A program made the position numbers and the translations under genes. The notes under the pieces are model-generated. The model ran no database searches and was not told the origin of the DNA. It saw only the letters and a list, made by a program, of their open reading frames with translations. Positions 22,548 through 41,626 of a DNA stretch of 64,000 nucleotides are shown piece by piece (the first letter of the stretch is position 1; each line of letters begins with the position of its first letter). Source of the stretch: a virus; IMG/VR virus record IMGVR_UViG_3300013005_003552, positions 62,001 to 126,000 of that record; one strand, written 5' to 3'.

Positions 22548-22967
22548 ATGAGCGAATTACCAATTGGACAAGGATTATTTCCCACACAAGGAAGTTATCG
22601 ACATACTCATCACATAGAAAAACTTCGCCCATTGGGCAACAATGTCTTGATCAAGGACATGAATTTTAGTGGTAGAACTCTTTCCAGTGGTATAGTGTTG
22701 TTAGGAGACGATGCCACTACCACCGGTATTCGTCCGCGCTGGGCGCAGGTATATGAAGTTGGTCCAGAACAACAAGATGTTGTTCCAGGACAATGGATCT
22801 TGGTAGAACACGGTCGCTGGAGTCGAGGCATTGAGGTTGAAATTGATAATGAGCAATTCACCTTAAGGCGAGTTGACCCAAACTGTATCATTTTTGTAAG
22901 TGACCACGCACCAGACGCCGATGATACCATTAGCTCTGCCGTCCAGGCACATAGCAAAACAAGATAA
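22548..22967 (+). CDS. GroES-like co-chaperonin (gp31-type candidate)
   Basis: 139 residues. The stretch from about 26 to 116 follows the GroES/Cpn10 fold order: LRPLGNNVLIKDM (strand 1), GIRPRWAQVYEVGPEQQDVVPGQWILVEHG (the G-x-V-x-x-V-G-x-G ... V-x-x-G-D-x-V core), and a final strand with FTLRRVDPNCIIFV. T4 makes gp31, a GroES substitute, to fold its major capsid protein with host GroEL; this protein could do the same. No GroEL is present in the window. It sits between an unknown protein and the clamp-loader cluster. The family call is by pattern and moderately sure. Confidence 0.6.
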   Translation: MSELPIGQGLFPTQGSYRHTHHIEKLRPLGNNVLIKDMNFSGRTLSSGIVLLGDDATTTGIRPRWAQVYEVGPEQQDVVPGQWILVEHGRWSRGIEVEIDNEQFTLRRVDPNCIIFVSDHAPDADDTISSAVQAHSKTR

Positions 22968-22971
22968 CCAA

Positions 22972-23214
22972 ATGGGATTCCGAAAGCCCAGCCTTGAGGA
23001 TGCTTACGCAGCTATCCGTACAAGTCTGTTAGAAATAAATTCTCCGTACAACGATGGTTTCACCGGAATAGCTTGCAAGCAAGAGCTATATCAGTTAAAA
23101 TGCTGGTTAGAGGACAACTATGATAGTTTACCAATCTTTGATGGAGAAGACAAATGGGAACAGGAACGGATGATTCAAATCTTAAAGAGGAAGCCAAAAA
23201 ACGCAGCCACATGA
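22972..23214 (+). CDS. Small unknown protein
   Basis: 80 residues from the ATG at 22972, four bases after the preceding stop; a longer in-frame version from 22900 would overlap the GroES-like gene by 68 nt and is rejected. The sequence (FRKPSLEDAYAAIRTSLLEINSPYNDGFTG...) is mixed alpha/beta with no recognised domain. Confidence 0.55.
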   Translation: MGFRKPSLEDAYAAIRTSLLEINSPYNDGFTGIACKQELYQLKCWLEDNYDSLPIFDGEDKWEQERMIQILKRKPKNAAT

Positions 23215-23609
23215 CGGCTCGTCTTTATCGAGGCTTGCTTGATATTCTCAAAACCAAAAACGAACATCTAAGCACTGCGTTGGTTGCGCATATTCGCAGT
23301 TTTGATCGCGGCGAAGAATCAGAATTTAGCTACACCGAAATGATGGGCTTCTGGCGCATGCTCATGGAGTTGATTTTTAATGTGTATGTTCAAACAGTAC
23401 ACTTTGTTGGCGTACTACTGGTTGCCACACTGGTGGTCGTTGCATGGCCGCTGCGGTGCTTGATAGAATTGTTCACAGGCAGTTGGTTTGGCAAAAATTA
23501 TCAACATCAGGATGAGCCAGGGCAAGAACCTGTGTTTGACAAATCAGAAGAATCAAAAAATGTTGTGCGCCGAGTGGTGTACGAAGAAGCCAAGGTTGAG
23601 AAAAAATGA
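23154..23609 (+). CDS. Small membrane protein
   Basis: 151 residues if it starts at 23154, which has GGAGAA five bases upstream; a second ATG at 23211 makes an ATGA overlap with the previous stop and would give 132 residues. A hydrophobic hairpin spans residues ~66-107 (FWRMLMELIFNVYV, then VHFVGVLLVATLVVVAWPL), giving one long or two short membrane helices, followed by a charged tail. It overlaps the clamp-loader start by 4 nt. Function unknown. Confidence 0.55.
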   Translation: MGTGTDDSNLKEEAKKRSHMTARLYRGLLDILKTKNEHLSTALVAHIRSFDRGEESEFSYTEMMGFWRMLMELIFNVYVQTVHFVGVLLVATLVVVAWPLRCLIELFTGSWFGKNYQHQDEPGQEPVFDKSEESKNVVRRVVYEEAKVEKK

Positions 23610-24523
23610 AAGAACTATGGGTTGAAAAATATCGTCCTTGTACCGTAAAAGAGTATGTGTTCATTGACAACAATCAACGAGAACAAGTTGTACAATGGAT
23701 CAAGGAAGGCCACATCCCACATCTCTTACTCAGTGGCGGCCCCGGTACCGGTAAAACCACACTAGCTCGTATGTTAATTCACGAACTTAAAGTGGACGAG
23801 TATGATGTGTTGCAGGTAAATGCAAGCAACGAAACCAAGGTTGAGACCATGAGAGACAAGGTGCTGGGATTTGCCAGCACCATGCCGTTTGGTGAGTTTA
23901 AGATAATTCTATTGGACGAAGCAGATTATCTTAGTCAAAACAGCCAGGCACTGTTGCGCAATGCTATGGAAACATATCATGCCAGTGTGCGATTTATTTT
24001 TACTTGTAACGCACCGCACAAGATAATCCCAGCACTGCACAGTCGTTGCCAAGGTTTCCACATTGCCAAACAGGATCACACAGAGTTTACTGCACGAGTG
24101 GCCACTGTGTTGGTTAGTGAAGGCATAGAATTTGATCTGGATACCTTGGACAGCTATGTCAAAGCAACATATCCAGATCTGCGTAAATGTTTGAATCTTG
24201 TGCAATTAAACAGCAACGACGGACATCTGAACAAGCCTCGCGAGGGCGATAAAGCAGTTGGGGACTGGAAACTGGATGCTGTTGAATTGTTCAAAGCTGG
24301 CAAAATTCGTGAAGCTCGTGTGTTGTTATGTTCACAAGCAGCACCAGAAGAAATGGAAGATATCTTTCGATGGATGTATGACAACATCACTTTATGGGGT
24401 ACCACGCACGAGAAACAAGACGAAGCAATCAAGATCATTCGTACAGGTCTTGTGAATCATGTGAGTTGTGCCGACCCTGAGATCAATCTCAGCGCAACCA
24501 TTATTGAACTGTCACAGATCTAA
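23606..24523 (+). CDS. 44: Clamp-loader ATPase subunit (gp44-like)
   Basis: 305 residues, an AAA+ protein of the replication factor C / T4 gp44 family. Visible are the RFC box WVEKYRP (5-11), Walker A SGGPGTGKTT (43-52), Walker B LLDEAD (102-107) and the arginine-finger S-R-C (146-148). It would load the sliding clamp (gene at 55272) onto primer-template for the family B polymerase (51591). In T4 the small subunit gene 62 follows gene 44; here a radical SAM gene follows instead, and no gp62-like gene was recognised. The length is close to T4 gp44 (319). Start ATGA overlaps the preceding gene. Confidence 0.88.
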   Translation: MKELWVEKYRPCTVKEYVFIDNNQREQVVQWIKEGHIPHLLLSGGPGTGKTTLARMLIHELKVDEYDVLQVNASNETKVETMRDKVLGFASTMPFGEFKIILLDEADYLSQNSQALLRNAMETYHASVRFIFTCNAPHKIIPALHSRCQGFHIAKQDHTEFTARVATVLVSEGIEFDLDTLDSYVKATYPDLRKCLNLVQLNSNDGHLNKPREGDKAVGDWKLDAVELFKAGKIREARVLLCSQAAPEEMEDIFRWMYDNITLWGTTHEKQDEAIKIIRTGLVNHVSCADPEINLSATIIELSQI

Positions 24524-25611
24524 TGCCGGTTTGTTTAGAGCCTCTTGCCCAGCCGGGTCATGCTCCTAGTTTTTTATTAGACTGGGAGCTTACCATGAAG
24601 TGTAATCTAGACTGTTCGTATTGTGGCACTGGATTGTATGGCGGGCATGATAATACCACTGCGCATCCACCCTTACAAGATTGTCTTAACACCATTGATT
24701 TCATGTATGCGTATGCTGATGCATATTTGGCATACAAGACACGAGGTTTACAAAAAGTAGTTTTGAATGTGTATGGCGGCGAAGCTCTCCATCATCCCCA
24801 CATAGTAAGCATCCTTGAGGCTGCAAAACAAAAGCATCAAGATTACGCATGGCCAATTACCATTACCACTACCACCAATGCTATTATTAGCGAAAAAAAG
24901 TTACAGTCGTTGCTGCCGTTGATTGATCAGTTTACTGTGAGCTATCATCCAGAGTCAACTGATAAACACAAACAACAATTTAGAAACAATCTACTTGTTA
25001 TAAAAAACAGCGGTCGAGCAATAAAGTGTGTGGTACTAATGCATCCTCAATATTTCGAAGACGCTCAACAGCAGGTACAGTGGTGTCAAGAACATGAAAT
25101 TGCCTGTCAACCCAAGGCCATTGACCATCCCAAAGAATGGCCACAGTTTAACTATGACCCCAAACAGGTTATTTGGCTTAATCAACTGTACAACACAGAT
25201 ATCTCTCCGGCTGCTAGCACAGATGTAAGTGAGCAAGGCAGGGCCTGTTGCGGAAGCAGGCAATTGTTTCATGACGAAAACTATAAACAATCTGTGTCGT
25301 TTGTTTACAATAAATTTCCAGACTGGTATTGTTCAGTCAATTGGTTCTTTGTATATGTTAAACAAGTCAACGGAGAAGTGTTTGTCAACAAAGATTGTAT
25401 GATGAACTTTGACGGCTCCGTGGGACCAATTGGAAATCTAAGCGAGTCTACACAGTTACTGGATAAATTAAAAACACAGTTACAAAACAATTCGCTACCT
25501 GTTATTCAGTGCAAGAAGCATAGTTGCTGGTGTGGATTGTGTGCGCCCAAAGCACAGACCATGGAAAAATACACAAGCATCATGCAAAAATATCAGAGGA
25601 GAATATCATGA
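24523..25611 (+). CDS. Radical SAM enzyme with extra C-terminal cysteines
   Basis: 362 residues. C27-x3-C31-x2-C34 (CNLDCSYC) is the canonical motif for the SAM-binding 4Fe-4S cluster, and VVLNVYGGEAL (~84-94) matches the following GGE SAM-contact motif. Further cysteines cluster in the C-terminal half (GRACCGS, WYCSVNW, NKDCMMN, CKKHSCWCGLC), suggesting an auxiliary SPASM/twitch-like cluster as in peptide- or sugar-modifying radical SAM enzymes. It starts on the last base of the clamp-loader stop and overlaps the next gene by 4 nt, forming a unit with an unknown protein, a cupin and a methyltransferase. The substrate is unknown. Confidence 0.8.
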   Translation: MPVCLEPLAQPGHAPSFLLDWELTMKCNLDCSYCGTGLYGGHDNTTAHPPLQDCLNTIDFMYAYADAYLAYKTRGLQKVVLNVYGGEALHHPHIVSILEAAKQKHQDYAWPITITTTTNAIISEKKLQSLLPLIDQFTVSYHPESTDKHKQQFRNNLLVIKNSGRAIKCVVLMHPQYFEDAQQQVQWCQEHEIACQPKAIDHPKEWPQFNYDPKQVIWLNQLYNTDISPAASTDVSEQGRACCGSRQLFHDENYKQSVSFVYNKFPDWYCSVNWFFVYVKQVNGEVFVNKDCMMNFDGSVGPIGNLSESTQLLDKLKTQLQNNSLPVIQCKKHSCWCGLCAPKAQTMEKYTSIMQKYQRRIS

Positions 25612-26012
25612 AAGAAAAAAGCATTTATCTGGTTGCAACCTATATCATGAAACCCAAGGATCATGTTAATACCAGCAAAAAAGGATGGAAGGATGATCCT
25701 GCAAACATCAGGTATGATGAAAAGATTGAGATAACTCGCGGAGTTAAAAAAAGAGACATGGATTCAGCCAATGTAATTTTAGATCTAAGCAACTTGCGTA
25801 TTGATCGTAATACTTTCAAAACTGAACGAACCTTTGATGAAATTTTTAGATACTATTTTAACAATTACAACAAATATTTGATTCCAGTAATGGGACAACT
25901 GCATCCAGACTATCTTGATCAAATGGCCAAAGAAATTGAACAAGAATTATCTGCCATACCCACAGATGATAATATCACGGAAGCAAAATATGAAGAACTG
26001 GAAACTAAGTGA
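25608..26012 (+). CDS. Unknown protein in the radical SAM cluster
   Basis: 134 residues from the ATG at 25608, which has AGAGGAG upstream and an ATGA overlap with the radical SAM stop; the longer frame from 25524 is a read-back into that gene. The sequence is basic and soluble (MKEKSIYLVATYIMKPKDHVNT). Motifs such as KRDMDSANVILDLSNLRI and FDEIFRYYFNNYNKYL give no family. It could be an accessory or substrate protein for the radical SAM enzyme; this rests only on position. Confidence 0.6.
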   Translation: MKEKSIYLVATYIMKPKDHVNTSKKGWKDDPANIRYDEKIEITRGVKKRDMDSANVILDLSNLRIDRNTFKTERTFDEIFRYYFNNYNKYLIPVMGQLHPDYLDQMAKEIEQELSAIPTDDNITEAKYEELETK

Positions 26013-26310
26013 AACTGGCGCCCGCGGCTGGTTCATAGGAGATTTCCCTGAGGCTGTATGGCGTACTAAAGATTTTGAAGTGAACTGGCAGACCAACGAA
26101 CCTGGTCATGCCACCAGCCACTATCACAAGGTGGTACATGAAATACAATTGGTCACGCGAGGACGCATATTGGTCAATGGTCAGATATATGAGGCCGGGG
26201 ACATATTCATGTTTGAACCTGGTGATCTTTGCCAGGTAGAATTTCTAGAACAAACAGACACTGTGGCTGTGAAAGTTCCCAGTGTGCCCAACGACAAATA
26301 TTATCTATAA
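25990..26310 (+). CDS. Cupin-fold protein
   Basis: 106 residues from the ATG at 25990 (GGAAG seven bases upstream); it overlaps the previous gene by 23 nt. Cupin motif 1 is clear: H44-x-H46-x4-E51-x6-G58 (SHYHKVVHEIQLVTRG). Motif 2 is seen as GDIFMFEPGDLCQVEF, where the usual His is replaced by Cys. Small cupins bind metal and act as isomerases, epimerases or dioxygenases, or bind sugars. The adjacency to a methyltransferase and a radical SAM enzyme suggests a small-molecule or sugar-modification set. Confidence 0.7.
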   Translation: MKNWKLSETGARGWFIGDFPEAVWRTKDFEVNWQTNEPGHATSHYHKVVHEIQLVTRGRILVNGQIYEAGDIFMFEPGDLCQVEFLEQTDTVAVKVPSVPNDKYYL

Positions 26311-26312
26311 AC

Positions 26313-27014
26313 ATGCACAGCTCTGCTCTCACCAATGCCAAAAAGTTCTTTGACACCTATTCAACTGCCATGCCCGATGGCGCCATTGTGGTAGATGTAG
26401 GCAGCATGGATATCAATGGCAGCATCAAAGATGTGTGTCCAACTCGATTCAATTATGTGGGCATAGATTTCGAGTCAGGTAAAAATGTAGATCTGGTCAT
26501 GTTGGATCCCTATGTTGTGCCTGTGCATGACGAAAAAGTCGACATCGTCACAGCCAGCAGTGTGTTTGAGCACAGCGAAATGTTCTGGGTGCTGTTCTTG
26601 GACATCATGCGCATACTCAAACCCAATGGATTGTTTTATCTCAATGTGCCCAGCAATGGTGCTTTTCACCGCCATCCAGTGGATTGCTGGCGTTTTTATC
26701 CGGACGCAGCCGAAGCATTGGTCACTTGGGCAGCTCGCAATGGACTCAATGTGGCTTTTTTAGAAAGCTGGTTCAGCAAAAAAGGTGACGATGACAGCGC
26801 ATGGAATGATTTTGTGGCAGTGTTTGTCAAGAACAAAGATTCGGCGTCAGAATATCCCAGTCGCATGGCCTACGATTTAGTGGACGGAAAATATCGTTGG
26901 AAGGTAAAAGCCGGCGAAATTTACAACGGCAGATTTTTTGGACAAGGAAGAGAATCTATTTTGGATTTGCAAGACTTCCCTGAAGGCGGACAGCCGCCAC
27001 GCACAAGAGCATAA
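26313..27014 (+). CDS. SAM-dependent methyltransferase (class I)
   Basis: 233 residues from the ATG at 26313; the longer frame from 26229 reads back through the cupin gene. Motif I is VVDVGSMDINGS, followed by the acidic strand-2 end YVGIDFE and the motif ASSVFEHSEMF, then RILKPNGLFYLNVPS, as in Methyltransf_11/25 proteins. The region GAFHRHPVDCWRFYPDAAEAL resembles methyltransferases of surface-sugar clusters. It stands two bases after the cupin stop. Target unknown. Confidence 0.75.
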   Translation: MHSSALTNAKKFFDTYSTAMPDGAIVVDVGSMDINGSIKDVCPTRFNYVGIDFESGKNVDLVMLDPYVVPVHDEKVDIVTASSVFEHSEMFWVLFLDIMRILKPNGLFYLNVPSNGAFHRHPVDCWRFYPDAAEALVTWAARNGLNVAFLESWFSKKGDDDSAWNDFVAVFVKNKDSASEYPSRMAYDLVDGKYRWKVKAGEIYNGRFFGQGRESILDLQDFPEGGQPPRTRA

Positions 27015-27017
27015 ATA
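27010..27017 (+). promoter_or_regulatory. T4-late-like octamer CATAAATA, unusually close to a start codon
   Basis: CATAAATA ends 4 nt before the ATG at 27022. Initiation would fall at or inside that codon, so it is either a promoter for a leaderless or downstream message or a chance match. Confidence 0.35.
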
Positions 27018-27021
27018 CTGT

Positions 27022-27261
27022 ATGAATCCAAAGTTTCTTAAAGCCATGAAGGCAAAGAAAAAGCGGGTGATGGATCCTAATATTCCACGCCCTAATTTGT
27101 TTTCGCATGACAAAGAAATTCGTGGAATTAAAACAACCAACGAAACAGTAGCACAACAAATCACGCATTTGCAGGATCAGGTGCGTAAGTTAGAACGCAA
27201 AGTGCAGGCACAAGCAGACTATATTGGTGCCCTGAATCAGCGGGTAGTGCTAAAAAAGTAA
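27022..27261 (+). CDS. Small basic coiled-coil protein
   Basis: 79 residues from the ATG at 27022. Lys-rich N-terminus (MNPKFLKAMKAKKKRVMDPNIPRPNLF), then a helical region (TVAQQITHLQDQVRKLERKVQAQADYI) with clear heptad spacing. There is no good ribosome site at 27022. Function unknown; possibly a DNA-binding or virion protein. Confidence 0.5.
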   Translation: MNPKFLKAMKAKKKRVMDPNIPRPNLFSHDKEIRGIKTTNETVAQQITHLQDQVRKLERKVQAQADYIGALNQRVVLKK

Positions 27262-27347
27262 CACTTTTTAGCTGATTTTGCTATTTTTGCAACAAAAAAC
27301 CCTGTAAAATCAAGCACTTACAGCATCTGAAATTGCTGCAAAAACGG

Positions 27348-27376
27348 TTGACCGTATTGGTCCATTTTGCTATACT
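27348..27376 (+). promoter_or_regulatory. Sigma70-like promoter
   Basis: TTGACC (27348-27353), 17-bp spacer, TATACT (27371-27376), with the predicted start near 27383. It is 24 nt upstream of the AAGGAG/ATG of the gene at 27407. The 145-nt gap before this gene also holds an imperfect A/T-rich stem (27249-27272) over the preceding stop codon. Confidence 0.75.
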
Positions 27377-27406
27377 AGTGGCATAGTGATTAATAAGGAG
27401 CCCAAA

Positions 27407-27676
27407 ATGTCCACAGCAACATACGATGCACTCACCGAGCAACAAAAGCGCGAAGTGCGCATGTACGGATGCACTGAAGCGCAAATGCGCGAAGCAGTAG
27501 AGTCCAGCATTACATTCAAGCTCAGCGGTCCTGCTATGATAGCCGCCAGCATGATGTCGGATGCACAAGAGATGATGGCATACGAACAGCCCGATTTCAA
27601 CACCATTGAAGATCAGCGTCAACTGCTGAACCGTGCCAAATTTGTGTTGTTTACTTATGTTATGGAGAACAAATAA
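27407..27676 (+). CDS. Small unknown protein, probable early gene
   Basis: 89 residues from the ATG at 27407, with AAGGAG (27395-27400). It follows the only sigma70-like promoter of this stretch, so it likely heads an early operon running to about 29479. The sequence is helical (YDALTEQQKREVRMYGCTEAQMREAVE, AMIAASMMSDAQEMMAYEQ). No family recognised. Confidence 0.6.
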   Translation: MSTATYDALTEQQKREVRMYGCTEAQMREAVESSITFKLSGPAMIAASMMSDAQEMMAYEQPDFNTIEDQRQLLNRAKFVLFTYVMENK

Positions 27677-27939
27677 TGTACACCGTTGAAATCTACAAAG
27701 CAGACAAGCGCAAGAAGTCAGGCGAGCGTCAGGTGCTCAAGCAGGACTACGACACCAACAACCTCAGCATGCTGGAGCACACTGTCAAACACACCTGGCT
27801 CAAGCGTGATGGCTATCGTTACGAAATCCACAAAACCTTTGTGACCAAGACTAACTTAATGAGTGGGCAGGAGTTCCAAGAGCGTTATGACCGTCCCTAC
27901 TACTGCTCACCTTCGAGCGAAACTTATTGGAGCATGTAA
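27676..27939 (+). CDS. Small basic protein, unknown
   Basis: 87 residues, starting on the last base of the preceding stop (TAATG). Basic N-terminus (MYTVEIYKADKRKKSGERQ), mixed alpha/beta. No recognised domain. Part of the early-type operon from 27407. Confidence 0.55.
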   Translation: MYTVEIYKADKRKKSGERQVLKQDYDTNNLSMLEHTVKHTWLKRDGYRYEIHKTFVTKTNLMSGQEFQERYDRPYYCSPSSETYWSM

Positions 27940-27941
27940 TC

Positions 27942-28097
27942 ATGACAAAATTTGCCAAACAGGTTTTGACCCTAGCCGAACAAATAGGTGACCCAACTGG
28001 CTTCAGCGAAGAAACCATAGACTACATTGCCTGTGAGTTACAGGTAAGCTATGATGATGTTGAAGAAGTTTTTGAAGAACTTAGTTTTACTGATTAA
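27942..28097 (+). CDS. 51-aa acidic peptide, unknown
   Basis: An ATG at 27942 with GGAG nine bases upstream opens 51 codons ending in TAA (28095-28097). The product is acidic and helical (QVLTLAEQIGDPTGFSEETI ... SYDDVEEVFEELSFTD). The tight spacing to both neighbours (2 and 17 nt) supports it as a real gene. No family recognised. Confidence 0.55.
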   Translation: MTKFAKQVLTLAEQIGDPTGFSEETIDYIACELQVSYDDVEEVFEELSFTD

Positions 28098-28114
28098 CAT
28101 TGGAGCACATGAAC

Positions 28115-28801
28115 ATGGCCAAGACCTACAAGATTGAATCTCGCGAACTGGTTGCCCTGGCCTTTGCGGCTCAGCGTGTGAACGGCGCCATGTACAAAGA
28201 CACCTCGTTCTTTGACACCGAAAAGGACGCGGTTGTCGAAGTGGTGCCAAACAAGACGCTGATGTTCAACAGTTTTGCCTTTGAGCCTGGTAGCAATCCA
28301 GAACTGGTACCCACAGACGAAGACCGTGCTCAAGCAGATGCTGCCATCACTGCAATCCAGGGAGATGTGCTGATCAAGAAGCTGGCAGACCGTCGTGTGA
28401 GCGATTTCATATTTTCACTCAGCGAAGCCATCAGCCAGCCCACTTGCACCCAACGTGACTGCGGCTTGGTTGCGTTTGTGCCCAAGACCTATGCTGGCAT
28501 GCTAGAGCGCCAGGAAAAAGATGAAGCCAAAATTGGACTGGCCAGTACCAGCGAATACCTGGGCCGTGTGGGCGAAAAGATCCAATTGGACTTTGCCCTG
28601 ATTGACAGCAGATACCTTCAGCAGTATAATTGTTACAGTGTAACTGGGCATGACGGCTGCGGCAACATGGTCAGCTTCTTGACCGCGCATCAAAATTTGG
28701 CAGTCAGCGGGCGCATACAGGGCAAGGTCAAGCGCACCGAAGTCAGCCAGTATCACAATGGTGCTAAGACCACCCAACTGAATTTTGTAAAAAGGGTTTA
28801 A
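28115..28801 (+). CDS. Unknown 228-aa protein
   Basis: Start chosen at ATG 28115 (M-A-K-T-Y-K), nine bases after GGAG; an in-frame ATG at 28109 is also possible. The sequence is soluble and alpha/beta. Residues ~104-135 include CTQRDCGLVAF and the C-terminal region has TGHDGCGNMVSFLTAH ... LAVSGRIQGKVKRTE, which could form a small OB-like domain. It is codon-wise and spatially part of the 27407-29479 operon. Function unknown. Confidence 0.55.
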   Translation: MAKTYKIESRELVALAFAAQRVNGAMYKDTSFFDTEKDAVVEVVPNKTLMFNSFAFEPGSNPELVPTDEDRAQADAAITAIQGDVLIKKLADRRVSDFIFSLSEAISQPTCTQRDCGLVAFVPKTYAGMLERQEKDEAKIGLASTSEYLGRVGEKIQLDFALIDSRYLQQYNCYSVTGHDGCGNMVSFLTAHQNLAVSGRIQGKVKRTEVSQYHNGAKTTQLNFVKRV

Positions 28802-28806
28802 TAGTA

Positions 28807-29199
28807 ATGGAATTTGAAAAAAAAGTACATTGGCAAACTCACACTGGTGATGTAAACGGTCTGTGGAGCAATGCGGCCAAGGCTGTTACCATCCTTGAGG
28901 TATCGTTACGCAATGTCAATGACGAGGGTGATTTTGGCGAACTGTGTGCAAGATTTGACACCAAAACCTGGAACTGCAATCAGGACGGTTTAATCTACAC
29001 AGATGGTATCTGGATCAACGAGTTCCGTGCGCTCATGCGCTCGTTGGGTTTTACTCGCAACGCTGTGAACGACATCAACTACAGTGAGCAGGGCATGCAA
29101 GGCTACAACTTTGTGAGCATGGATGTGGGCCCAGAATTCCTGCGCGAAGTAGAACCCATGTATCGTTTTACCATCAACAAAGAGGCTATCAATGCTTGA
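28807..29199 (+). CDS. Unknown 130-aa protein
   Basis: 130 residues, soluble. Recognisable only as MEFEKKVHWQTHTGDVNGLW at the start and a Trp/Asn-rich middle (TKTWNCNQDGLIYTDGIWINEF). There is no signal or membrane segment. It overlaps the next gene by 8 nt. Confidence 0.55.
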   Translation: MEFEKKVHWQTHTGDVNGLWSNAAKAVTILEVSLRNVNDEGDFGELCARFDTKTWNCNQDGLIYTDGIWINEFRALMRSLGFTRNAVNDINYSEQGMQGYNFVSMDVGPEFLREVEPMYRFTINKEAINA

Positions 29200-29479: not shown

Positions 29480-29480
29480 T

Positions 29481-31527: not shown

Positions 31528-32010
31528 ATGAAAACACTATATTTAGACATGGACGGCGTGGTAGCCGATTTTGATGAATATGCTGCACGGACTCTTGGGG
31601 TACCACCTAGTGCAGGAATCTATCCTGATCAAGTATGGTACAATCTGGCCACGAATGCTAGACTCTATAGAGATCTTGTCAAGACACCCTATGCCGATGA
31701 ATTAGTCAACAACTGCAAAGCCATATGTGCCGTTCAGGGCTGGGAACTGATGTTTTTAACTGCGGTACCTAAAGGCAACGATGTTCCGTGGGCATTCTAC
31801 GATAAGGTTGTCTGGGCGCAGAATTACTTCCCGGATATTCCAGTTATGTTTGGTCCTTTTAGCAAGGACAAATGGACACACTGTAAGCCTGGCGATATAC
31901 TGATTGATGATCGCAAGAGCAATATTGCTGAATGGCGAGCAGCAGGCGGTAACGCAATACATCATGTGGATTACGAAACCACCTTGGCTGCGCTGAATCA
32001 ATTTAGTTAA
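31528..32010 (+). CDS. 5'(3')-deoxyribonucleotidase-like HAD phosphatase
   Basis: 160 residues from the ATG at 31528. HAD motif I is L-D7-M-D9-G-V-V-A-D-F-D; motif II is FLTAVPKG; the end has PGDILIDDRKSNIAEWRAAGG as motif IV. This order is that of NT5C-type nucleotidases, which dephosphorylate deoxynucleoside monophosphates, fitting nucleotide-pool control. The start lies six bases after the terminator stem with no Shine-Dalgarno between, so expression may depend on read-through or be weak. Its TAA shares bases with the phoH stop (TTAA, 32007-32010) in convergent orientation. Confidence 0.75.
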   Translation: MKTLYLDMDGVVADFDEYAARTLGVPPSAGIYPDQVWYNLATNARLYRDLVKTPYADELVNNCKAICAVQGWELMFLTAVPKGNDVPWAFYDKVVWAQNYFPDIPVMFGPFSKDKWTHCKPGDILIDDRKSNIAEWRAAGGNAIHHVDYETTLAALNQFS

Positions 32011-32777
32011 ATTTCTTTGTAAATTTTCAACACCTCCAAGACTGCAGGATGTCTATGAATGTCCCTGCCCGACAATTCAACACCAGCGACATACTGGCTT
32101 TGTTTGTACTGTTCAACCAAACGCCTAAAATCCAGTAGTCCGTTGTCTGGATCAGCGCGGTCGGCCTGACGAGTGTCGCCAGTAACCACAATTTTAGAAC
32201 CTTCACCTAAACGAGTAAGCAGCATCTTCATTTGCCCTGGTGTGGCGTTTTGCATTTCATCTGCGATGATCCATGCGTTCTTAAATGTTCGCCCTCGCAT
32301 GTATGCCAGTGGAGAAATCTCTATCAATTGGTCTTCTAGCATACGGGTGATTTCTTGTGGTTTATAGTACTCCTTTAGAATATCAAAAATAGGTCGAGTC
32401 CAAGGCTCCATCTTGGCATTTATATCGCCGGGTAAAAAACCATGTTTTTCGTCATCTACACCCACAGCTGGACGAGTGATTATCAACTTGTTTACCTGCC
32501 CTGAACGCAAAGCTCTAACCGCTGCTACAACTGCCAACATGGTTTTACCTGTGCCGGCAGGGCCTGTGGCAAACACGATTTTACGCTCATCGTCTTTGAG
32601 TAGATCAATGTAGATTTCTTGATTACGACTTTTTGGAATTAATACCGGATCTTTTCTTTGATAACTGTATTCTTTGAAACTTATTGTGTTATCTGCATGG
32701 ACTGGCTGAAGGGCTAGTCTATTTTTCCTTTTACTCAAGGGTAACTCTCCTGTGATTGATGTTGTAGAGTTTGTCAT
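32007..32777 (-). CDS. phoH: PhoH-like ATPase
   Basis: 256 residues, the only convincing minus-strand gene. Walker A is TGPAGTGKT (71-79), followed by the family signature ITRPAVGVDDEKHGFLPGD, then IADEMQNATPGQMKMLLTRLG and a sensor-like VVTGD. This is the PhoH P-loop ATPase family, widespread in marine phages and often discussed as a phosphate-starvation or RNA-metabolism protein; its phage function is unsettled. It converges on the HAD gene. Its leader has two overlapping inverted repeats and no obvious ribosome site, suggesting control. Confidence 0.92.
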   Translation of the reverse strand: MTNSTTSITGELPLSKRKNRLALQPVHADNTISFKEYSYQRKDPVLIPKSRNQEIYIDLLKDDERKIVFATGPAGTGKTMLAVVAAVRALRSGQVNKLIITRPAVGVDDEKHGFLPGDINAKMEPWTRPIFDILKEYYKPQEITRMLEDQLIEISPLAYMRGRTFKNAWIIADEMQNATPGQMKMLLTRLGEGSKIVVTGDTRQADRADPDNGLLDFRRLVEQYKQSQYVAGVELSGRDIHRHPAVLEVLKIYKEI

Positions 32778-34801: not shown

Positions 34802-34810
34802 GGAGCAATT

Positions 34811-35440: not shown

Positions 35441-35442
35441 TC

Positions 35443-35976
35443 ATGAGCTGGTCAGCCATAAGTTGGATGGTCAACTGGTTACCAGATAGTCTGCTCATGT
35501 TGGTTTTTTACGGCTGTTTCTTTCTAGGCATTGCTCTAATATTGATCAGCTGGTTTGTAAGTTTCATTCCATTCATTAATCAATATCGCTTTCCTACTCA
35601 AGTGGTTGGTATTCTAGCCTATGGTCTAGGTGCTTTCATGATTGGTGGTCTGGGCACAGAACTAGGCTGGCGCGAGCGTGTGGCTGAACTGGAGAAAAAG
35701 GTAGCCGAAGCTGAAGTAAAATCTCAACAGGTCAACACTGTGATTCAAACCAAGATAGTGGAAAAAGTCAAGGTCGTCAAAGAAAAAGGCCAGCAACAGA
35801 TAGAGTACATTGATCGTGTGGTCAAAGGCGACACAACAGAAATCATCAAAGACATGAGCGATGAAGAACGCCAAAAGTTCTTGGTCAAACAAAAGGAATT
35901 GGAAGATTCTATCAAGAATTTCTCAGTTCCGCAAATTATAGTGGAAGAACTCAATAAGGCCGCTGAATCAAAATGA
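35443..35976 (+). CDS. Membrane coiled-coil protein, candidate inner-membrane spanin
   Basis: 177 residues. Two hydrophobic helices (about 16-42 and 53-70) are followed by a long charged coiled coil (~76-165: ERVAELEKKVAEAEVKSQQVN, then VVKEKGQQQIEYIDRVVKGD). A membrane anchor plus periplasmic coiled coil, followed by an overlapping lipoprotein gene, is the layout of Rz/Rz1 spanins, which disrupt the outer membrane at the end of lysis. Two transmembrane helices instead of one is atypical. Two bases separate it from the endolysin. Confidence 0.6.
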   Translation: MSWSAISWMVNWLPDSLLMLVFYGCFFLGIALILISWFVSFIPFINQYRFPTQVVGILAYGLGAFMIGGLGTELGWRERVAELEKKVAEAEVKSQQVNTVIQTKIVEKVKVVKEKGQQQIEYIDRVVKGDTTEIIKDMSDEERQKFLVKQKELEDSIKNFSVPQIIVEELNKAAESK

Positions 35977-36239
35977 AAACATATTCAATCGTATTTGCCA
36001 TGTTGCTCACAGGATGTTCCACCACAGTGCCTGTGGTAATGAAATTTCCTGATATTCCCCCTTCGTTAGATCAAAGCTGTGTCACCTTGGACAAAATCCA
36101 AGGTGAAAAAGTCAGCATAGTTGATTTACACAAAACTGTACTAGACAATTATACCAAATATCACGAGTGTTCAATCAAGGTCGAAGGTTGGTTAGAGTGG
36201 TATACCACCCAGAAAAAAATATATGAAAGTTTGAAATGA
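35973..36239 (+). CDS. Lipoprotein, candidate outer-membrane spanin (Rz1-like)
   Basis: 88 residues with a short signal peptide and lipobox L-L-T-G-C (residues 11-15: MKTYSIVFAMLLTGCST), so processing would leave a lipid-modified Cys15. The mature part is small, with a proline-containing start (FPDIPPSLDQ). It overlaps the coiled-coil gene by 4 nt, as expected for a spanin pair. Confidence 0.65.
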   Translation: MKTYSIVFAMLLTGCSTTVPVVMKFPDIPPSLDQSCVTLDKIQGEKVSIVDLHKTVLDNYTKYHECSIKVEGWLEWYTTQKKIYESLK

Positions 36240-36640
36240 AAAAAGTTCTTGCTGTGATATTGTTGACCAGTGCGTTATCAGGCTGTGCTGTTTGGGATGC
36301 CTATTTCATGGCCAAGTTTGATGTCAATGAATACCAATACATAACTCGGATACGCACACATGCTCAGCTGGGGATACCAAAATGTGGAACAGATGCTGTG
36401 GTTGAACATGTGAAGTACATTCATGTGGTGTCTCAAGAGTACAAGAACTATGCAGAAATGATTCCACGCAATGAAAACAGTTTTCAATTGGCCGACACCT
36501 TGACAACAATTACTGATGAGTTTTATAAAAGATATCAAGGCGACAAACCGCCCAGTACTGTTTACTGCAAGGCAAAATTTGCAGCCATTGAACGCAGTGC
36601 AGAAAACATACAAAAAGTAATAGGAGCCAAGCCAAGATGA
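36236..36640 (+). CDS. Second lipoprotein in the lysis region
   Basis: 134 residues with signal peptide and lipobox L-S-G-C (MKKVLAVILLTSALSGCAVW; lipid Cys17). The mature part is mostly helical with two further cysteines. Tandem lipoproteins next to an endolysin are not the usual spanin layout; one could be the outer spanin and the other an outer-membrane or superinfection-exclusion protein. It overlaps both neighbours by 4 nt. Confidence 0.65.
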   Translation: MKKVLAVILLTSALSGCAVWDAYFMAKFDVNEYQYITRIRTHAQLGIPKCGTDAVVEHVKYIHVVSQEYKNYAEMIPRNENSFQLADTLTTITDEFYKRYQGDKPPSTVYCKAKFAAIERSAENIQKVIGAKPR

Positions 36641-36900
36641 AAGCACAAGACATACTAGACAGTGTGCATGGTACTGAAACACAGGATCCTCGTATGGCGC
36701 AGGCTGCTGCCATGCTATCCGAGTATACCATGGAGTTTCAAGCAGGTAGAATGAGCAGCGACGAGTATCAAGAATTGGTCGCTGACCTGCAGGTAGAAAA
36801 CTTGATCAATGCACAATGCGACGATCTGGCTGCCAAAGAAAGATTAAATAGTATTTGTTCAGCTGTGCTAAATGCAGCCAGCTTACTATCCAGCGTATAA
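36637..36900 (+). CDS. Small helical protein, unknown
   Basis: 87 residues, all-helical in appearance (MAQAAAMLSEYTMEFQAGRMSSDEYQELVADLQ), soluble. It overlaps the lipoprotein by 4 nt. No family recognised. Confidence 0.55.
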   Translation: MKAQDILDSVHGTETQDPRMAQAAAMLSEYTMEFQAGRMSSDEYQELVADLQVENLINAQCDDLAAKERLNSICSAVLNAASLLSSV

Positions 36901-36912
36901 GGTAAAATAATT

Positions 36913-37167
36913 ATGATTACATCATCTCACAAAGACAACCTAGACATGTACCACAACATGGGCGGGTGGTTAGGCGACATTGGATTCAAGGCAAAGAATC
37001 TTGTACGCCTGTTTGAAAGCAAAGAAATGCCAGAACCGGCACTTACTCACATGTTCACAGAAATGATGAAAATGACCAGCGTGAATGCCACACCAGACGA
37101 AATTCTAAAGAAGGATGATCTCAATGGTGTGTTGTCTGCTATTATTGCAGAAGCACAAACAGTTTAA
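36913..37167 (+). CDS. Small unknown protein
   Basis: 84 residues (GGWLGDIGFKAKNLVRLFESKEMP), mixed helix, soluble. Twelve bases after its upstream neighbour, eleven before the next gene. No family recognised. Confidence 0.55.
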   Translation: MITSSHKDNLDMYHNMGGWLGDIGFKAKNLVRLFESKEMPEPALTHMFTEMMKMTSVNATPDEILKKDDLNGVLSAIIAEAQTV

Positions 37168-37178
37168 GGAGTTTAACA

Positions 37179-37742
37179 ATGGCAATACAAGATTCTATTC
37201 TCAAATTAATTAACAAAGAACCCAAAGACGACAATGCCCCAAAGCCAGCTCCGGGCAGTCGCAGCGAGCGCGAGGCAAAAATCAAAGACAAAGCAGGTAT
37301 GGTTATTTCTGTATTTGCTTTATTTCTGGCAGTGAATTCCTGGTATGGTGGTAAGTTAAGTTCAACAGTGCTTAACAATACCCTGGGAGCCAACAACACC
37401 TGGGCCCAGTATCAAGCCAAAGCAAGTCGCGGTGTCAGCTACGAAATCGCTGCCAAAACAACTAGTGATCCAAAAATCAAAGCACAGTTCATGGCAGAGA
37501 AAGAGCGCATGGATGCTGACAAGAAAGAAATTGCTGTCAAAGCAAGAGAAATGGAAGCGGCTCGTGAAGAAGCCAAGAAGTCTAGTCCATGGATAGGATA
37601 CGCATCAACTGCATACCAGCTGGCTATTGTGGTGTTGTCTGCTAGCATTTTGGCTGTGAGCACGCCCATGTTCTGGGGCAGTTTTGTAGTGGCCGCAGCT
37701 GGGTTGGCTCTAAGTGCCCAGGGTGTATTTTTATTTCTATAA
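37179..37742 (+). CDS. DUF4337-like membrane protein
   Basis: 187 residues. One membrane helix (~41-60), then NSWYGGKLSSTVLNNTLGANNTWAQYQAKASR, a DUF4337-like stretch, a charged coiled coil (~105-135) and two C-terminal membrane helices (~145-187). The function of DUF4337 proteins is unknown. Sitting between spanin-like and holin-like genes, it could take part in lysis or membrane control. Confidence 0.65.
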   Translation: MAIQDSILKLINKEPKDDNAPKPAPGSRSEREAKIKDKAGMVISVFALFLAVNSWYGGKLSSTVLNNTLGANNTWAQYQAKASRGVSYEIAAKTTSDPKIKAQFMAEKERMDADKKEIAVKAREMEAAREEAKKSSPWIGYASTAYQLAIVVLSASILAVSTPMFWGSFVVAAAGLALSAQGVFLFL

Positions 37743-37754
37743 CGGAGGAGTATC

Positions 37755-37871
37755 ATGCTTGAAACATTATTTTGGTTAGCTATTGGTGCATTCATTGGGT
37801 GGAATTTTCCTCAGCCCGAATTTGCCAAAACCATACAGACAAAAATTTTAGCAGCATTCAAGAAAACATAA
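37755..37871 (+). CDS. 38-aa single-helix membrane peptide
   Basis: An ATG at 37755 preceded by the strong ribosome site CGGAGGAG opens 38 codons to TAA (37869-37871). The first half is hydrophobic (LETLFWLAIGAFIGW) and the second is Lys-rich, a one-helix membrane peptide. Placed between membrane genes of the lysis region; it could modulate the holin. Confidence 0.6.
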   Translation: MLETLFWLAIGAFIGWNFPQPEFAKTIQTKILAAFKKT

Positions 37872-37884
37872 AGGAGCAATCAAA

Positions 37885-38373
37885 ATGGCAGCATTTGGAA
37901 AAACGCCAATTGGCGATCTAGGCGACACAGGCGATGCAGACGGAAGAATTCCTGCAGGCTTACCTAGCAACAGTTTTGGTGCAGTAACTCCGGGCTTTGG
38001 TGCATCACCAAGTCCAACACCAGCATCAGTACCACAAGCAGCACCACAGGGTCATGCACCAGACCGCACAGCCAGTGCAGCCGCGGCAGTGGCCGGCGGC
38101 GCAGAAAGCACCGTGGCCAACACCAACACAGATTGGATCAATAACAAGTGGCGTCCAGCAATGGGTTGGTTGTACATGCTTACCTGTTTCTTTGACTTTG
38201 TTATCTTTCCAATTCTTTGGAGTATTTTGCAAACACTACAAGGCGGGCAGGTTACAAGTCAATGGCAACCACTGACACTACAAGGCGCAGGCCTGTATCA
38301 TATTGCCATGGGTGCTGTGCTTGGTATTGCCGCATACGGTCGTACCAAAGAAAAACTCGGCGACAAGCAGTAG
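37885..38373 (+). CDS. Holin-like protein (3-TM, GTA-holin type)
   Basis: 162 residues. A long Ala/Pro/Gly-rich soluble N-terminus (~1-85) precedes WRPAMGWLYMLTCFFDFVIFPILW (helix 1-2) and YHIAMGAVLGIAAYGRTKEKLG (final helix and charged tail). The R-P-x-x-G-W ... G-x-x-A-x-R/G-x-x-E-K arrangement resembles the 3-TM holin family of gene transfer agents and phages. It would form the lesion that releases the GH19 endolysin, although 2.4 kb separate them. The ribosome site is AAGGAG. Confidence 0.6.
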   Translation: MAAFGKTPIGDLGDTGDADGRIPAGLPSNSFGAVTPGFGASPSPTPASVPQAAPQGHAPDRTASAAAAVAGGAESTVANTNTDWINNKWRPAMGWLYMLTCFFDFVIFPILWSILQTLQGGQVTSQWQPLTLQGAGLYHIAMGAVLGIAAYGRTKEKLGDKQ

Positions 38374-38400
38374 TCAAATAAGTAATTGCATAAACAAGTC

Positions 38401-38431
38401 AGCGGAAATTGCCTAACAAGGGATTTCCGCT
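38401..38431 (+). terminator. Stem-loop between holin-like gene and dnaJ
   Basis: AGCGGAAAT (38401-38409) pairs with ATTTCCGCT (38423-38431), with an inner CCT/AGG helix in the loop. No U-run follows, so termination is uncertain; its last base is also the first base of the dnaJ -35 box. Confidence 0.5.
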
Positions 38432-38459
38432 TGACACATGGTTAATTAACGTGTAAACT
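38431..38459 (+). promoter_or_regulatory. Strong sigma70-like promoter of dnaJ
   Basis: TTGACA (38431-38436), 17-bp spacer, TAAACT (38454-38459). The spacer contains the perfect palindrome GTTAATTAAC (38441-38450), a possible operator. The predicted +1 is 38466, the A of the dnaJ ATG. Confidence 0.75.
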
Positions 38460-38465
38460 ATGCGC

Positions 38466-39302
38466 ATGGACTACTATTCAATACTGGGTGTTCCCCGAGG
38501 GGCATCTGACGAAGATATCAAAAAGGCTTATCGCAAACTAGCGATGAAGCACCATCCGGATCGCGGCGGCGATCAAAATCAATTTCAAAAAATTCAAGAA
38601 GCGTATGCTACTCTAGGCGACTCACAGAAACGCCAGGAATATGATAACCCGCAACCGCAGCATCAAGGATTTCATTTCCATTTTGGTCAAGGAAACCCCC
38701 TTGATGAAATTTTTGCTTCGTTTGGGTTTGGTGGCGCCGGCGGCCCAGATCCATTTGCTCATATGCGGCAACAGCATCGAAAAAATAAAGATTTAAGAAT
38801 TCAAATTGAACTAGAGCTAGAAAGCACACTAAGCGAACAAACCAAAACTATCAGTGTACAAACTACCACCGGCGAAAGACAAACTGTTGAAGTAAAAATA
38901 CCGCGTGGCATAGCAACAGGACATCAAATGCGTTATGCCGGCTTAGGCGATAACATGTTTGCTACTATCCCAAGAGGCGACTTGTATATAAATTTTTTGG
39001 TCAGAGAGGATGTTAGATTTCAACTTGAAGGCATTGATCTTGTGTACAAGGTCAATGTAAACTGTTTAGATGCAATGACTGGTACAGATATAGATGTTCC
39101 TAACATTGAAAACAAAGTGTTTAGACTTTCTATACCAGCCGGTGCTAAACATGGTGCAAGACTAAGACTGCCAAATCAAGGCTTGTATGACATCAACACC
39201 ATGCGTCGTGGTAATCTGATTGTAGAAATCGCTCTGACTGTGCCGGTGATTACAAATCCACAAGCAGTTGACCTGATTGAACAATTAAAGCAAGTTTTAT
39301 AA
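38466..39302 (+). CDS. dnaJ: DnaJ/Hsp40 co-chaperone, type II (no zinc finger)
   Basis: 278 residues from the second ATG ([14 protein letters not shown]). The first ATG at 38460 would add two residues (M-R) and sits directly behind the -10 box. J-domain with H30-P31-D32 and [12 protein letters not shown]; then a Gly/Phe linker (~66-105) with no CxxCxGxG zinc-finger repeats; then two C-terminal beta domains (for example [22 protein letters not shown] [17 protein letters not shown] near 223-239). The overall plan is CbpA-like. It stimulates Hsp70 ATPase, presumably that of the phage DnaK and/or host DnaK. No Shine-Dalgarno is visible; the promoter predicts a leaderless transcript. It is followed by the clpA-type gene after 23 nt. 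Confidence 0.9.
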
Positions 39303-39305
39303 ATA
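39298..39305 (+). promoter_or_regulatory. T4-late promoter octamer TATAAATA
   Basis: Exact late consensus overlapping the dnaJ stop codon, 20 nt before the ATG at 39326. Confidence 0.6.
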
Positions 39306-39325
39306 TCTTTATCTAAAGGCAAAGC

Positions 39326-41626
39326 ATGATACAGGCTAATCCTGAAATTGAACTCATTATTTCTGCTGCTGGCGATAATGCTAAAAGGCACAAACACGAA
39401 TATGTAACCTTGGAGCATCTATTGTATGCCATACTTAATTACCGTCCATTTGGTGATCTTCTCAAGAACTTTGGCACAGATGTTGACGCGATATTAAACG
39501 ATATTGACAGTTACAACAATAGATTTGACAATGGCAATCAAGCCAACGACGAAGATCTGCAACCAAAAAAAACTCATGCGTTAGAGCGTGTGTTTAATCG
39601 TAGTCTAACACAAGTTCTGTTCAGTGGTCGCAATCACATGCAGGTCATGGATTTATTTTTGAGCATCACCGGCGAACAAAACAGTCATGCTGCTTATTTT
39701 ATTATTAAACACGGCATTGACAGAGCCAAGATAATTGAATTCTACAATGAAAACTACAAAGAAGGCAACAGTAGGAAAAATGCCTCTAAGCAACGAGCAA
39801 TCGAAGTACTAAAAGAATACTGCGATGATCTTAACGAATTAGCCACTGAAGGCAAAATTGATCCTGTAATTGGTCGCGAGCACGAGCTCGACGAAATAGC
39901 GCATGTGCTTGCCAAACGAAACAAAAGCAACATTCTCATGGTAGGCGACGCAGGGGTTGGTAAAACAGCTATTGCCGAAGGACTGGCTCGACGCATTGTT
40001 GAAGGAGATGTTCCTGACTATTTGAGAGACTATACTGTTTACAATCTTGACATTGGCAGTTTGCTAGCAGGTAGTAAGTACCGCGGAGAGTTTGAAGAAA
40101 AACTCAAAGATGTAATCAAGGCGCTGAACATTCGTGGCAAAACAATTTTGTTCATTGACGAAGCACATCAAATGCGTGGTGCAGGCTCAGGGTCGGGTAG
40201 CAATGTTGACTTTGCAAACATGATCAAACCTGCATTGACCAAGGGTCGTATCAAAGTGATTGCGTCTACTACTTGGGAAGAATACACTCAAACTTTTGAA
40301 AAAGATCGTGCGCTCATGCGCAGGTTCTATAGACTCACAGTAGACGAACCCACACCGGCTGTGGCCAAAGATATTCTATTTGGCCTCCGTGTTCACTTTG
40401 AAGAATTTCATGGCGGTAATATTTCAGACGATGCAATTGAAAGCGCCGTGGACCTCAGTGTGCGCTATCAAAGTGACAAAAAATTGCCAGACAAAGCAAT
40501 TGATTTGATTGATACTGCTTGTGCCAAAGCCAAGATCTATCAAACAAATTGGACAGTAAATCGTAAAAACATCATTGAATGTTTGAGTAAGTTTACAAAA
40601 ATTCCAGTTGAGCAACTCACCGGCGATGTTGAAGGCGATGGCAGCAACATTCAGAATCTTGAACCAAAAGTAAAGAGCAGACTTTACGGACAAGACAGTG
40701 CAGTTGAAATGGTGCTTGAAAAGATTTATGTAAGTCGTGCAGGACTAAAACCATTGAACAAACCAGTTGGCACATTTTTGTTTACTGGTCCCACAGGCAC
40801 TGGTAAAACTGAGCTTGCCAAGTTGTTGGCTGAGTTTTTAGGCATGAAATTGTTACGCTACGACATGAGCGAGTATCAGGAAAAACACAGTGTGGCCAAA
40901 CTAATTGGCGCACCACCTGGCTATGTTGGATATGATGACAGTAATCTAGGCGGGGGCTTGTTGATCAGTGACATTGAAAAGAATCCCAATGCTATTATTC
41001 TTTTTGACGAAATTGAAAAAGCTCACCCTGATGTCAGCAACATCATGCTCACTGTTATGGATGAAGGCACTGTTACCAGCAGCAATGGCAAAAAAGCAGA
41101 TTGCCGTAATTGCATTGTGATAATGACCAGTAACCTAGGTGCAGCAGACAACGAAAGAAACAATATTGGCTTTGGACGCGACTTGCAAAAGTCAGGTGAA
41201 GACGATAAAGCAGTGAAAAATTACTTTAGGCCAGAGTTTAGAAATAGACTAGATGCAATATGCAAGTTTAACAAGCTAGAAAAGAACAGCATGCGCCTTA
41301 TTGTGAACAAGTTCATCAATGAAATGAATGACTTGTTGATTGACAAAGGCATCAAGGTAAAATTATCTGACTCAGCGATTGAACACATTATTGACCAAGG
41401 CTTTGATCCCAAGATGGGTGCCCGCCCGTTGGGTCGTAAGATTAATGATCTGATAAAGGTTCCGTTAAGTCGTAAAATTCTTTTTGATCGCCTAGGGGCA
41501 AATAACACGGTGTCAGTAGACTATCGTAACGACAAGCTAGAATTTGATATCACCACAACCAATTTGGCAGTAATTCCTTCTATAGACAGCAATGGATACA
41601 TCGTTCTGGACGGCATTAAATCCTAA
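39326..41626 (+). CDS. clpA: ClpA-type AAA+ unfoldase
   Basis: 766 residues (E. coli ClpA 758). The N-domain is [15 protein letters not shown]1 has Walker A GDAGVGKT (207-214); D2 has Walker A GPTGTGKT (488-495) and [16 protein letters not shown]. There is no long coiled-coil insert between D1 and D2, which separates it from ClpB. The I614-G615-F616 tripeptide sits where ClpA carries its ClpP-docking IGL loop, so it probably feeds substrates to host ClpP. No ClpP is visible here. It could degrade host factors or remodel phage assemblies together with DnaK/DnaJ. Preceded by an exact late-type promoter. Confidence 0.92.

Follow-up and report, generated by a model that had tools for sequence, protein, structure and literature searches.

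Why would a virus encode a GroES-like protein, a DnaK, a J-protein and a ClpA unfoldase, and how far would these parts depend on the machinery of its host? The question is raised by a 64,000-nucleotide (nt) stretch of viral DNA, hereafter the window, which comprises bases 62,001-126,000 of the 144,265-base IMG/VR virus record IMGVR_UViG_3300013005_003552. An initial annotation had placed the four genes here, and domain matches confirm that they are real and lie where they were claimed, each in an open reading frame (ORF) that is open and intact:

22548..22967, + strand: GroES / T4 gp31-like co-chaperonin, 139 amino acids (aa); Cpn10 24.1 bits (cut-off 21.1), PHROG 931 'head morphogenesis' 45 bits
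29571..31496, + strand: DnaK (Hsp70), 641 aa; HSP70 852.7 bits over nearly the whole protein
38460..39302, + strand: class B J-protein; J-domain 85.6 bits, DnaJ_C 114.3 bits
39326..41626, + strand: ClpA unfoldase, 766 aa, 23 nt after the J-protein; Clp_N, two AAA modules, D2-small

The explanation that we favor, with a probability of about 0.6, is that these genes belong to a jumbo phage's own network for holding, folding and degrading proteins, which would be run with host GrpE and GroEL. Judged from sequence, the phage has ClpA, ClpX, ClpP, ClpS, HSP20, a J-protein, DnaK and a GroES-like protein, which bears out the initial view that several chaperone genes are gathered in one phage. Comparison of predicted genes across related loci reveals two nearly invariant pairs in which a Clp component has a chaperone or co-chaperone as its partner: ClpA is paired with the J-protein, and ClpS with HSP20.

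The J-protein combines a J-domain bearing the HPD motif with a G/F-rich linker and two C-terminal domains, the architecture of class B, and a domain search detects no zinc-finger domain. Its ORF begins at 38460; the start given initially, 38466, is the second in-frame Met. The AlphaFold model has a mean predicted local distance difference test (pLDDT) score of 86, and Foldseek identifies as best match the DnaJ of T. thermophilus, which we take to be a class B J-protein. HPD is present in 76 of 76 homologues longer than 200 aa, and the zinc-finger repeat in none. ClpA contains an N-domain, two AAA+ modules and the ClpP-docking tripeptide IGF, and has no middle domain. The tripeptide is invariant in the five closest homologues, and a simple window scan finds IGF, IGL or VGF in 75 of 80 ClpA homologues. 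The best relative of solved structure is E. coli ClpA (705 bits), followed by ClpC (589), a ClpB/ClpA fusion chain (564) and ClpB (559). The alignment rules out a ClpB/Hsp104-type disaggregase: where ClpB has its long insertion, between the AAA modules, the phage protein shows a gap. It is the coiled-coil middle domain of ClpB that docks DnaK; for a ClpA lacking this domain, the ClpB way of docking DnaK is therefore unavailable.

Linkage was counted in collection scans with DnaK, ClpA and ClpS as queries, in which the best 80 loci were kept for each and near-identical loci were counted individually. All 76 loci that extend 900 nt or more upstream of ClpA (80 fetched) have a J-protein gene there in the same orientation, within 300 nt in 74 and at 414 and 483 nt in the other two. 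Homologues of the window's endolysin and holin occur upstream of ClpA in 52/73 and 56/73 related loci, respectively, and this position beside the lysis cassette suggests that J-ClpA would be expressed late. One 117,666-base contig (loci L263 and L264) contains ClpA twice, once on each strand and with identical figures, and a J-protein gene precedes each copy by 8 nt; the contig end is duplicated or inverted, which may be an assembly effect.

The second pair lies beyond the window. An overlapping contig of the same phage presents clpX, bS21, hsp20 and clpS in a row, approximately 6-9 kb past the end of the window's record, with the bS21 gene (62.9 bits) at 119224-119478 of G001 (L299:8224-8478). 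HSP20 is found no more than 300 nt upstream of ClpS in every one of the 74 loci that reach 700 nt or further in that direction (80 kept, 79 new examined). Each of the two proteins occurs in 19 of 24 records, the five misses (G000, G002, G003, G004 and G006) being fragments of at most 144.3 kb. ClpS (82.3 bits) shows the features of the ClpS fold and its N-degron pocket, retaining N34, D35, T38, M40, H66 and L99 and differing by D36E, M62T and V65I; N34, D35, M40 and H66 are presumably the pocket residues. The phage ClpX bears the IGF ClpP-docking tripeptide as well.

Profile searches for grpE, groEL and clpP, as proposed in the initial annotation, were run together with J-protein searches on 21 records that include Atu_ph07, Paride, Phosso and contigs of 355 and 364 kb; many of the records are fragments. 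Neither GrpE nor GroEL was detected in any of the 21 at E <= 0.01, with positive controls at 13/14 and 14/14, respectively, and given these results the host proteins are probably borrowed. ClpP is present in 15 of the 21. In the window's own record it is encoded at 12598-13188 (196 aa; CLP_protease 260.3 bits; 60% identity to E. coli ClpP). The initial statement that GrpE, GroEL and ClpP were not to be found thus stands for the first two; for ClpP it is true of the window only, because the gene lies outside it. ClpP keeps the triad S111, H136 and D185 (E. coli numbering), and its features are those of a ClpP peptidase, for which assembly into a tetradecamer and docking to phage ClpA and ClpX are predicted. 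A second, divergent ClpP-like protein (93-115 bits) accompanies the cellular-type ClpP in G009, G010, G013, G016, G037 and Phosso. The initial proposal was that the phage brings substrate-selecting parts and borrows host engines. It probably holds for GrpE and GroEL; it does not describe a phage that carries ClpP, ClpA, ClpX, ClpS and HSP20.

DnaK shares 67% identity with its E. coli counterpart. Like a full-length bacterial Hsp70, it has a nucleotide-binding and a substrate-binding domain, and the alignment shows the linker and, at the bacterial-type C-terminus, a VVDAxFxEVKD-type tail; ATPase and refolding activities are predicted. DnaK had initially been called rare in phages, which fails for this group: relatives of the window DnaK occur in 401 IMG/VR stretches, and the moraphages have been published with DnaK (PMC12619734). 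Our DnaK locus counts refer to the best 80 of these 401. The loci were gathered by similarity to the window DnaK, and the clade described here consists of those phage DnaKs, with other phage DnaKs (Lak, 484-735 kb phages) outside it. In a first tree (simple model, 92 rows), 53 phage DnaKs form one clade with a Shimodaira-Hasegawa-like approximate likelihood ratio test (SH-aLRT) support of 99, adjoining 30 close bacterial DnaKs that are mostly Burkholderiales by title (97). The DnaKs of E. coli and Acinetobacter fall outside, and those of Lak and other huge phages are far away. A second tree, computed under a mixture model, has 77 rows. Of the 53 phage DnaKs it takes 33; its bacterial part consists of E. 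coli, Acinetobacter, 12 sequences kept from the previous 30, and 30 additions, which are the top-scoring DnaKs among 150 genomes drawn from the phylum. Huge phages and Firmicutes are not represented in it. Here, too, the phage DnaKs form a single clade (33/33, support 100), apart from 44 bacterial Pseudomonadota DnaKs. The phylogeny called for initially, against bacterial and phage sequences, therefore sets the phage DnaKs apart from the sampled bacterial ones, none of which falls inside the phage clade. The window DnaK belongs to this clade near Pseudomonadota, in trees that held no moraphage or Bacteroidota DnaKs. Betaproteobacteria appear as the nearest bacterial group, with support of 97 in the first tree and of 93 in the second, where the branch has a length of 0.001 under a midpoint root; because the link rests on so short a branch, confidence in the bacterial source is lower than in the phage clade itself.

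The fraction of G+C at third codon positions is 0.42-0.45 for DnaK and 0.41-0.46 for the neighboring gp44 gene. The ratio of nonsynonymous to synonymous substitution rates (dN/dS) of DnaK is 0.05-0.12 among relatives, with dS saturated in most pairs and a value of 0.05 for the sole unsaturated one. Given the phage-only clade, the matching codon composition and the low dN/dS, DnaK is, on this comparative evidence, a long-resident phage gene under purifying selection. Recent capture from a host by the window phage is ruled out, since the closest bacterial sequences found share 68-76% identity in their best segment and lie outside the phage clade.

Several further features of the window serve as landmarks:

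23606..24523, + strand: T4 gp44-type clamp loader, left landmark of the DnaK block; PHROG 168, 244.5 bits, 56% to PA5oct/Paride
32007..32777, - strand: PhoH-like ATPase, right landmark of the DnaK site; PhoH 234.3 bits
34811..35440, + strand: endolysin, start of the lysis cassette upstream of J-ClpA; PHROG 181, 253.5 bits
35973..36239, + strand: Rz1-like spanin lipoprotein (weak); PHROG 456 25.1 bits, LysC 24.2 bits, below the cut-off of 27
37179-37742: DUF4337 protein of the lysis region; 87.2 bits, homologue upstream of ClpA in 13/73 related loci
37885..38373, + strand: holin-like membrane protein directly before the J-protein; GTA_holin_3TM 28 bits (cut-off 24.8)

The order MazG, polymerase piece, GroES-like gene, gp44, PhoH, further genes and ClpA is common to Paride, Phosso and Atu_ph07. 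Five IMG/VR relatives (L008-L012) retain most of the window neighborhood, one of them on a 355-kb contig, and the 168-kb record of L007 represents the same phage: it matches the left end of the window's record at 99.97% identity for 19,716 bases. On account of the shared block order, the 355-kb relative and the overlapping L007 record, the window's record very likely covers only part of a jumbo phage genome.

L007-L012 form the window clade, in which the DnaK ORF is open in 6/6 loci and lies between gp44 and PhoH wherever those ends fall in the locus. L008-L012, which come from four other samples, keep intact genes for DnaK, J-protein and ClpA in unchanged order; ClpA of L008 is clipped by the end of the locus and whole in L235 of the same contig. 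No HSP20 lies within any of the six DnaK loci of this clade. The other 74 of the 80 DnaK loci have a different arrangement. Of these, 69 extend 700 nt or more past dnaK; HSP20 comes directly next (less than 400 nt) in 61 of them, lies further off in five and is missing from the locus in three. Where HSP20 is present and more than 1,300 nt of room remains, ClpS lies within 2.5 kb in 59/64 loci and at 2.6-6.4 kb in 5/64. Conversely, dnaK stands just before hsp20 in 25 of 52 ClpS-drawn loci with at least 2,900 nt upstream. Among loci L013-L086, 70 offer more than 700 nt ahead of DnaK, and in 55 of these a bS21 gene precedes DnaK in the same orientation at a distance of up to 3 kb, though within 400 nt in only nine. 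Two loci reveal a further DnaK insertion site: at L069:10001-11878 and L070:8231-10108, DnaK adjoins a homologue of the window ORF 59866-61275, in the DNA polymerase block. The phage DnaK loci do not show the grpE or dnaJ adjacency of many bacteria. No grpE ORF accompanies DnaK in any of the 80 loci (flanks up to 10 kb, some much shorter), and the only dnaJ-like matches are the phage's own J-protein, 4.8-7.9 kb off, in L007-L012.

The GroES-like protein is the least secure of the four calls, its match being low yet above the cut-off. The alignment places GIVLLG at the mobile-loop position, where E. coli GroES has GIVLTG, and homologues lie shortly before gp44 in Paride, Phosso and Atu_ph07. 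A sequence search of solved structures returned no significant relative, and the AlphaFold model, built with four sequences, is unusable (pLDDT 38). A conventional GroES (69-105 bits) is encoded in the related records G004, G011, G012 and G019, of which G004 also has a gp31-like gene (seen in L010).

We propose that these parts would work as follows. HSP20 would hold unfolding proteins during the burst of virion protein synthesis, and the J-protein would hand clients to DnaK, the phage's own where present and the host's elsewhere, cycling with host GrpE. In T4, gp31 works with host GroEL for the capsid protein; the gp31-like lid may likewise partner host GroEL. Clients that do not fold, together with host or phage proteins bearing ClpS-readable N-termini, would be unfolded by phage ClpA or ClpX and cut by phage ClpP or by a mixed phage/host ClpP. 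Having more of these machines, with the J-protein and ClpS as phage-controlled selectors, would yield soluble late output and degradation on the phage's terms. DnaK would be a booster cassette that these phages exchange or relocate in their genomes, mostly directly upstream of hsp20 and, in the window clade, between gp44 and PhoH. A bolder version, which we regard as tentative and rather doubtful, is a chaperone-to-protease relay not known from bacteria. In it the J-protein would have co-evolved with ClpA, so that Hsp70 clients pass to ClpAP for degradation or refolding and not to ClpB; HSP20 would have co-evolved with ClpS, delivering held clients to the same machine, and the old phage-only DnaK would plug in.

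A number of observations weigh against an integrated network. DnaK of the window clade sits outside the chaperone operon, and among the 24 ClpA-drawn records of at least 100 kb in our survey (from 25, the omitted record, that of L211, being the window's own phage), 23 have J-ClpA and no DnaK; DnaK is therefore not needed for the rest of the set. The single positive, L214, is from the same record as L011 and belongs to the window clade. DnaK frequencies differ between the samples because each sample follows its own query. A J-domain protein is found in 16/21 records, and the five without one (G008, G010, G014, G016 and G017; 14-278 kb) all have DnaK, so DnaK and a phage J-protein are not always together. 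On the ClpA tree the presence of DnaK needs at least five changes, which implies transfer or repeated loss, with a sampling bias: the DnaK-positive rows outside the window clade came from the DnaK search, and several DnaK-negative rows are fragments. The J-ClpA records without DnaK, the DnaK records without a J-domain match and the count of changes speak against joint inheritance of DnaK and the J-protein, and from its distribution DnaK is an optional, accessory cassette of these phages. ClpP is not found in 6/21 records and is present in only 6 of the 23 J-ClpA records without DnaK; the misses may reflect incompleteness or a real lack. The absences of GrpE and GroEL are weak, since most records are fragments. 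Nor are the pairs universal. No annotated J-protein immediately precedes ClpA in RaK2, GAP32, Vibrio phage 2.275 or SCTP-2, and the J-protein search gave no match in these four; a peptide deformylase intervenes between J-protein and ClpA in Phosso, a thymidine kinase gene separates hsp20 from clpS in Atu_ph07, and the J-protein of Paride is devoid of the G/F region. The unpaired ClpAs and the split pairs imply that the pairs mark this phage group and not all jumbo phages.

Other explanations distribute the same parts differently. The genes could serve host takeover by targeted proteolysis, with ClpS-ClpA-ClpP and ClpX-ClpP degrading chosen host or defense proteins and the chaperones feeding the protease. 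Retention of the ClpS residues N34, D35, M40 and H66, with the pocket roles assumed above, is in keeping with this, as are the ClpP tripeptides in both ClpA and ClpX and the phage's possession of ClpP, and in the proposal of Iyer et al. it is host ClpAP to which phage ClpS delivers targets (PMC7824862). We nevertheless consider takeover unlikely, as HSP20, the J-protein and often DnaK are holding and folding parts that a pure protease would not need, and the lysis-side location of J-ClpA hints at late, not early, expression. Alternatively, the J-protein and DnaK might sabotage or retune host Hsp70 in the manner of the RB43 J-protein Rki, titrating host partners, stabilizing sigma32 and raising host heat-shock proteins including GrpE and GroEL. 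Rki does bind host DnaK and stabilize sigma32 (PMC3486835), and where the J-protein is retained and no DnaK is found, it would have to meet host DnaK. Yet Rki is described as not being a generic co-chaperone (PMC3486835), whereas the window J-protein has the full class B architecture, and retuning leaves the Clp parts unexplained; it seems distinctly improbable.

A role confined to virion assembly is more improbable still. J-ClpA would then remodel a phage structure such as the tail, the portal or a lysis complex, and ClpP would be the prohead protease, both apart from general proteostasis. The nearness of ClpA to tail and lysis genes and the name of the best PHROG for phage ClpP, 'head maturation protease', speak for it; at 60% identity, though, the ClpP of the window's record is closer to cellular E. 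coli ClpP than is Paride_0070 at 46%, and HSP20-ClpS, ClpX and DnaK are better accommodated by a general network. The initial annotation had named two findings that would undo its proposal, and neither was obtained. The first, an assembly chimera with host DNA or host contamination, could be suspected from the bacterial look of DnaK and ClpP; its probability is negligible, and it is ruled out by the gene order kept in all six loci L007-L012, by the lack of any grpE match in the 21 records and 80 DnaK loci, and by the phage-only DnaK clade. The second, broken DnaK or ClpA genes in related phages, disagrees with the intact genes of L008-L012 and with the low dN/dS of DnaK, mostly saturated dS notwithstanding.

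Bacteria combine DnaK, DnaJ, GrpE and ClpB in a disaggregase and ClpS, ClpA and ClpP in a protease. The phage set draws on the same families, bar GrpE and ClpB, and differs in that its J-protein is genetically paired with ClpA, which has no middle domain, and not with DnaK or ClpB; no grpE was found. Among phages, two jumbo phages, Atu_ph07 of Agrobacterium and Phosso of Sinorhizobium, resemble the window phage in having a J-protein before ClpA, a GroES-like gene before gp44, PhoH, ClpP, ClpS and HSP20, and Atu_ph07 also has a ClpX-like gene. Unlike the window phage, both are without a DnaK match in the phage collection search. The Atu_ph07 paper lists ClpX, ClpA, ClpB, ClpP, ClpS and DnaJ (PMC6102473), of which ClpB is a difference. 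The Sinorhizobium phage AP-J-162, also a jumbo phage, is likewise reported to encode GroES, six Clp proteins, Hsp20 and DnaJ; in contrast to the window phage, the word 'DnaK' is absent from the accessible text of its paper (PMC11242549). Paride, a Pseudomonas phage of the Arenbergviridae, shares the MazG, polymerase piece, GroES-like, gp44, PhoH and ClpA order and the HSP20-ClpS pair. Its J-protein before ClpA, in contrast, is cut down to 229 aa and annotated only as hypothetical, its ClpP is the more divergent one, and neither it nor PA5oct, another Pseudomonas phage of the Arenbergviridae, has a DnaK match in the phage collection search.

Single parts of the set are already published for jumbo phages. 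Iyer et al. describe Hsp10, Hsp20, DnaJ, ClpA, ClpP and ClpS across jumbo phages, and 'DnaK' is absent from the accessible text (PMC7824862). In large phages that encode bS21, HSP20 and Clp genes near bS21 have been counted, with zero occurrences of DnaK or DnaJ in the part of the paper available (PMC9723584). The moraphages, which are large and mostly aquatic, include eight that encode DnaK, some with DnaJ and HSP20, and most have a ClpA VOG (PMC12619734). Seven of the eight moraphage DnaKs fall within Flavobacteriaceae (PMC12619734), whereas the window-type DnaKs form their own clade among Pseudomonadota-type sequences; the available portions of that paper contain zero occurrences of GrpE and GroE and do not describe the dnaK-hsp20-clpS order (PMC12619734). 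The linked gene pairs and this DnaK clade were not found in the published literature searched, which comprised few subscription papers and no preprints.

With most parts of the bacterial hold/fold/degrade network in one virus lineage, arranged in fixed gene pairs, the system becomes testable. The pairs point to possible direct cooperation of J-protein with ClpA and of HSP20 with ClpS, and the existence of related pairs in the cultured relatives Paride and Atu_ph07 makes deletions feasible. The presence of DnaK in about half of the ClpS-drawn loci amounts to a natural gain/loss experiment on why large viruses require proteostasis of their own, and the DnaK clade represents an Hsp70 lineage long resident in phages.

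Two neighbors of these genes are worth recording. A free-standing 170-aa piece at 21584-22096 of the window matches a DNA polymerase family (PHROG 11127); the window encodes a full DNA polymerase as well, at 51591-54248. Homologues of the piece occur in Paride, Phosso and Atu_ph07. The variable stretch between gp44 and DnaK includes a radical SAM protein (24523-25611), matched among the other loci only in L008.

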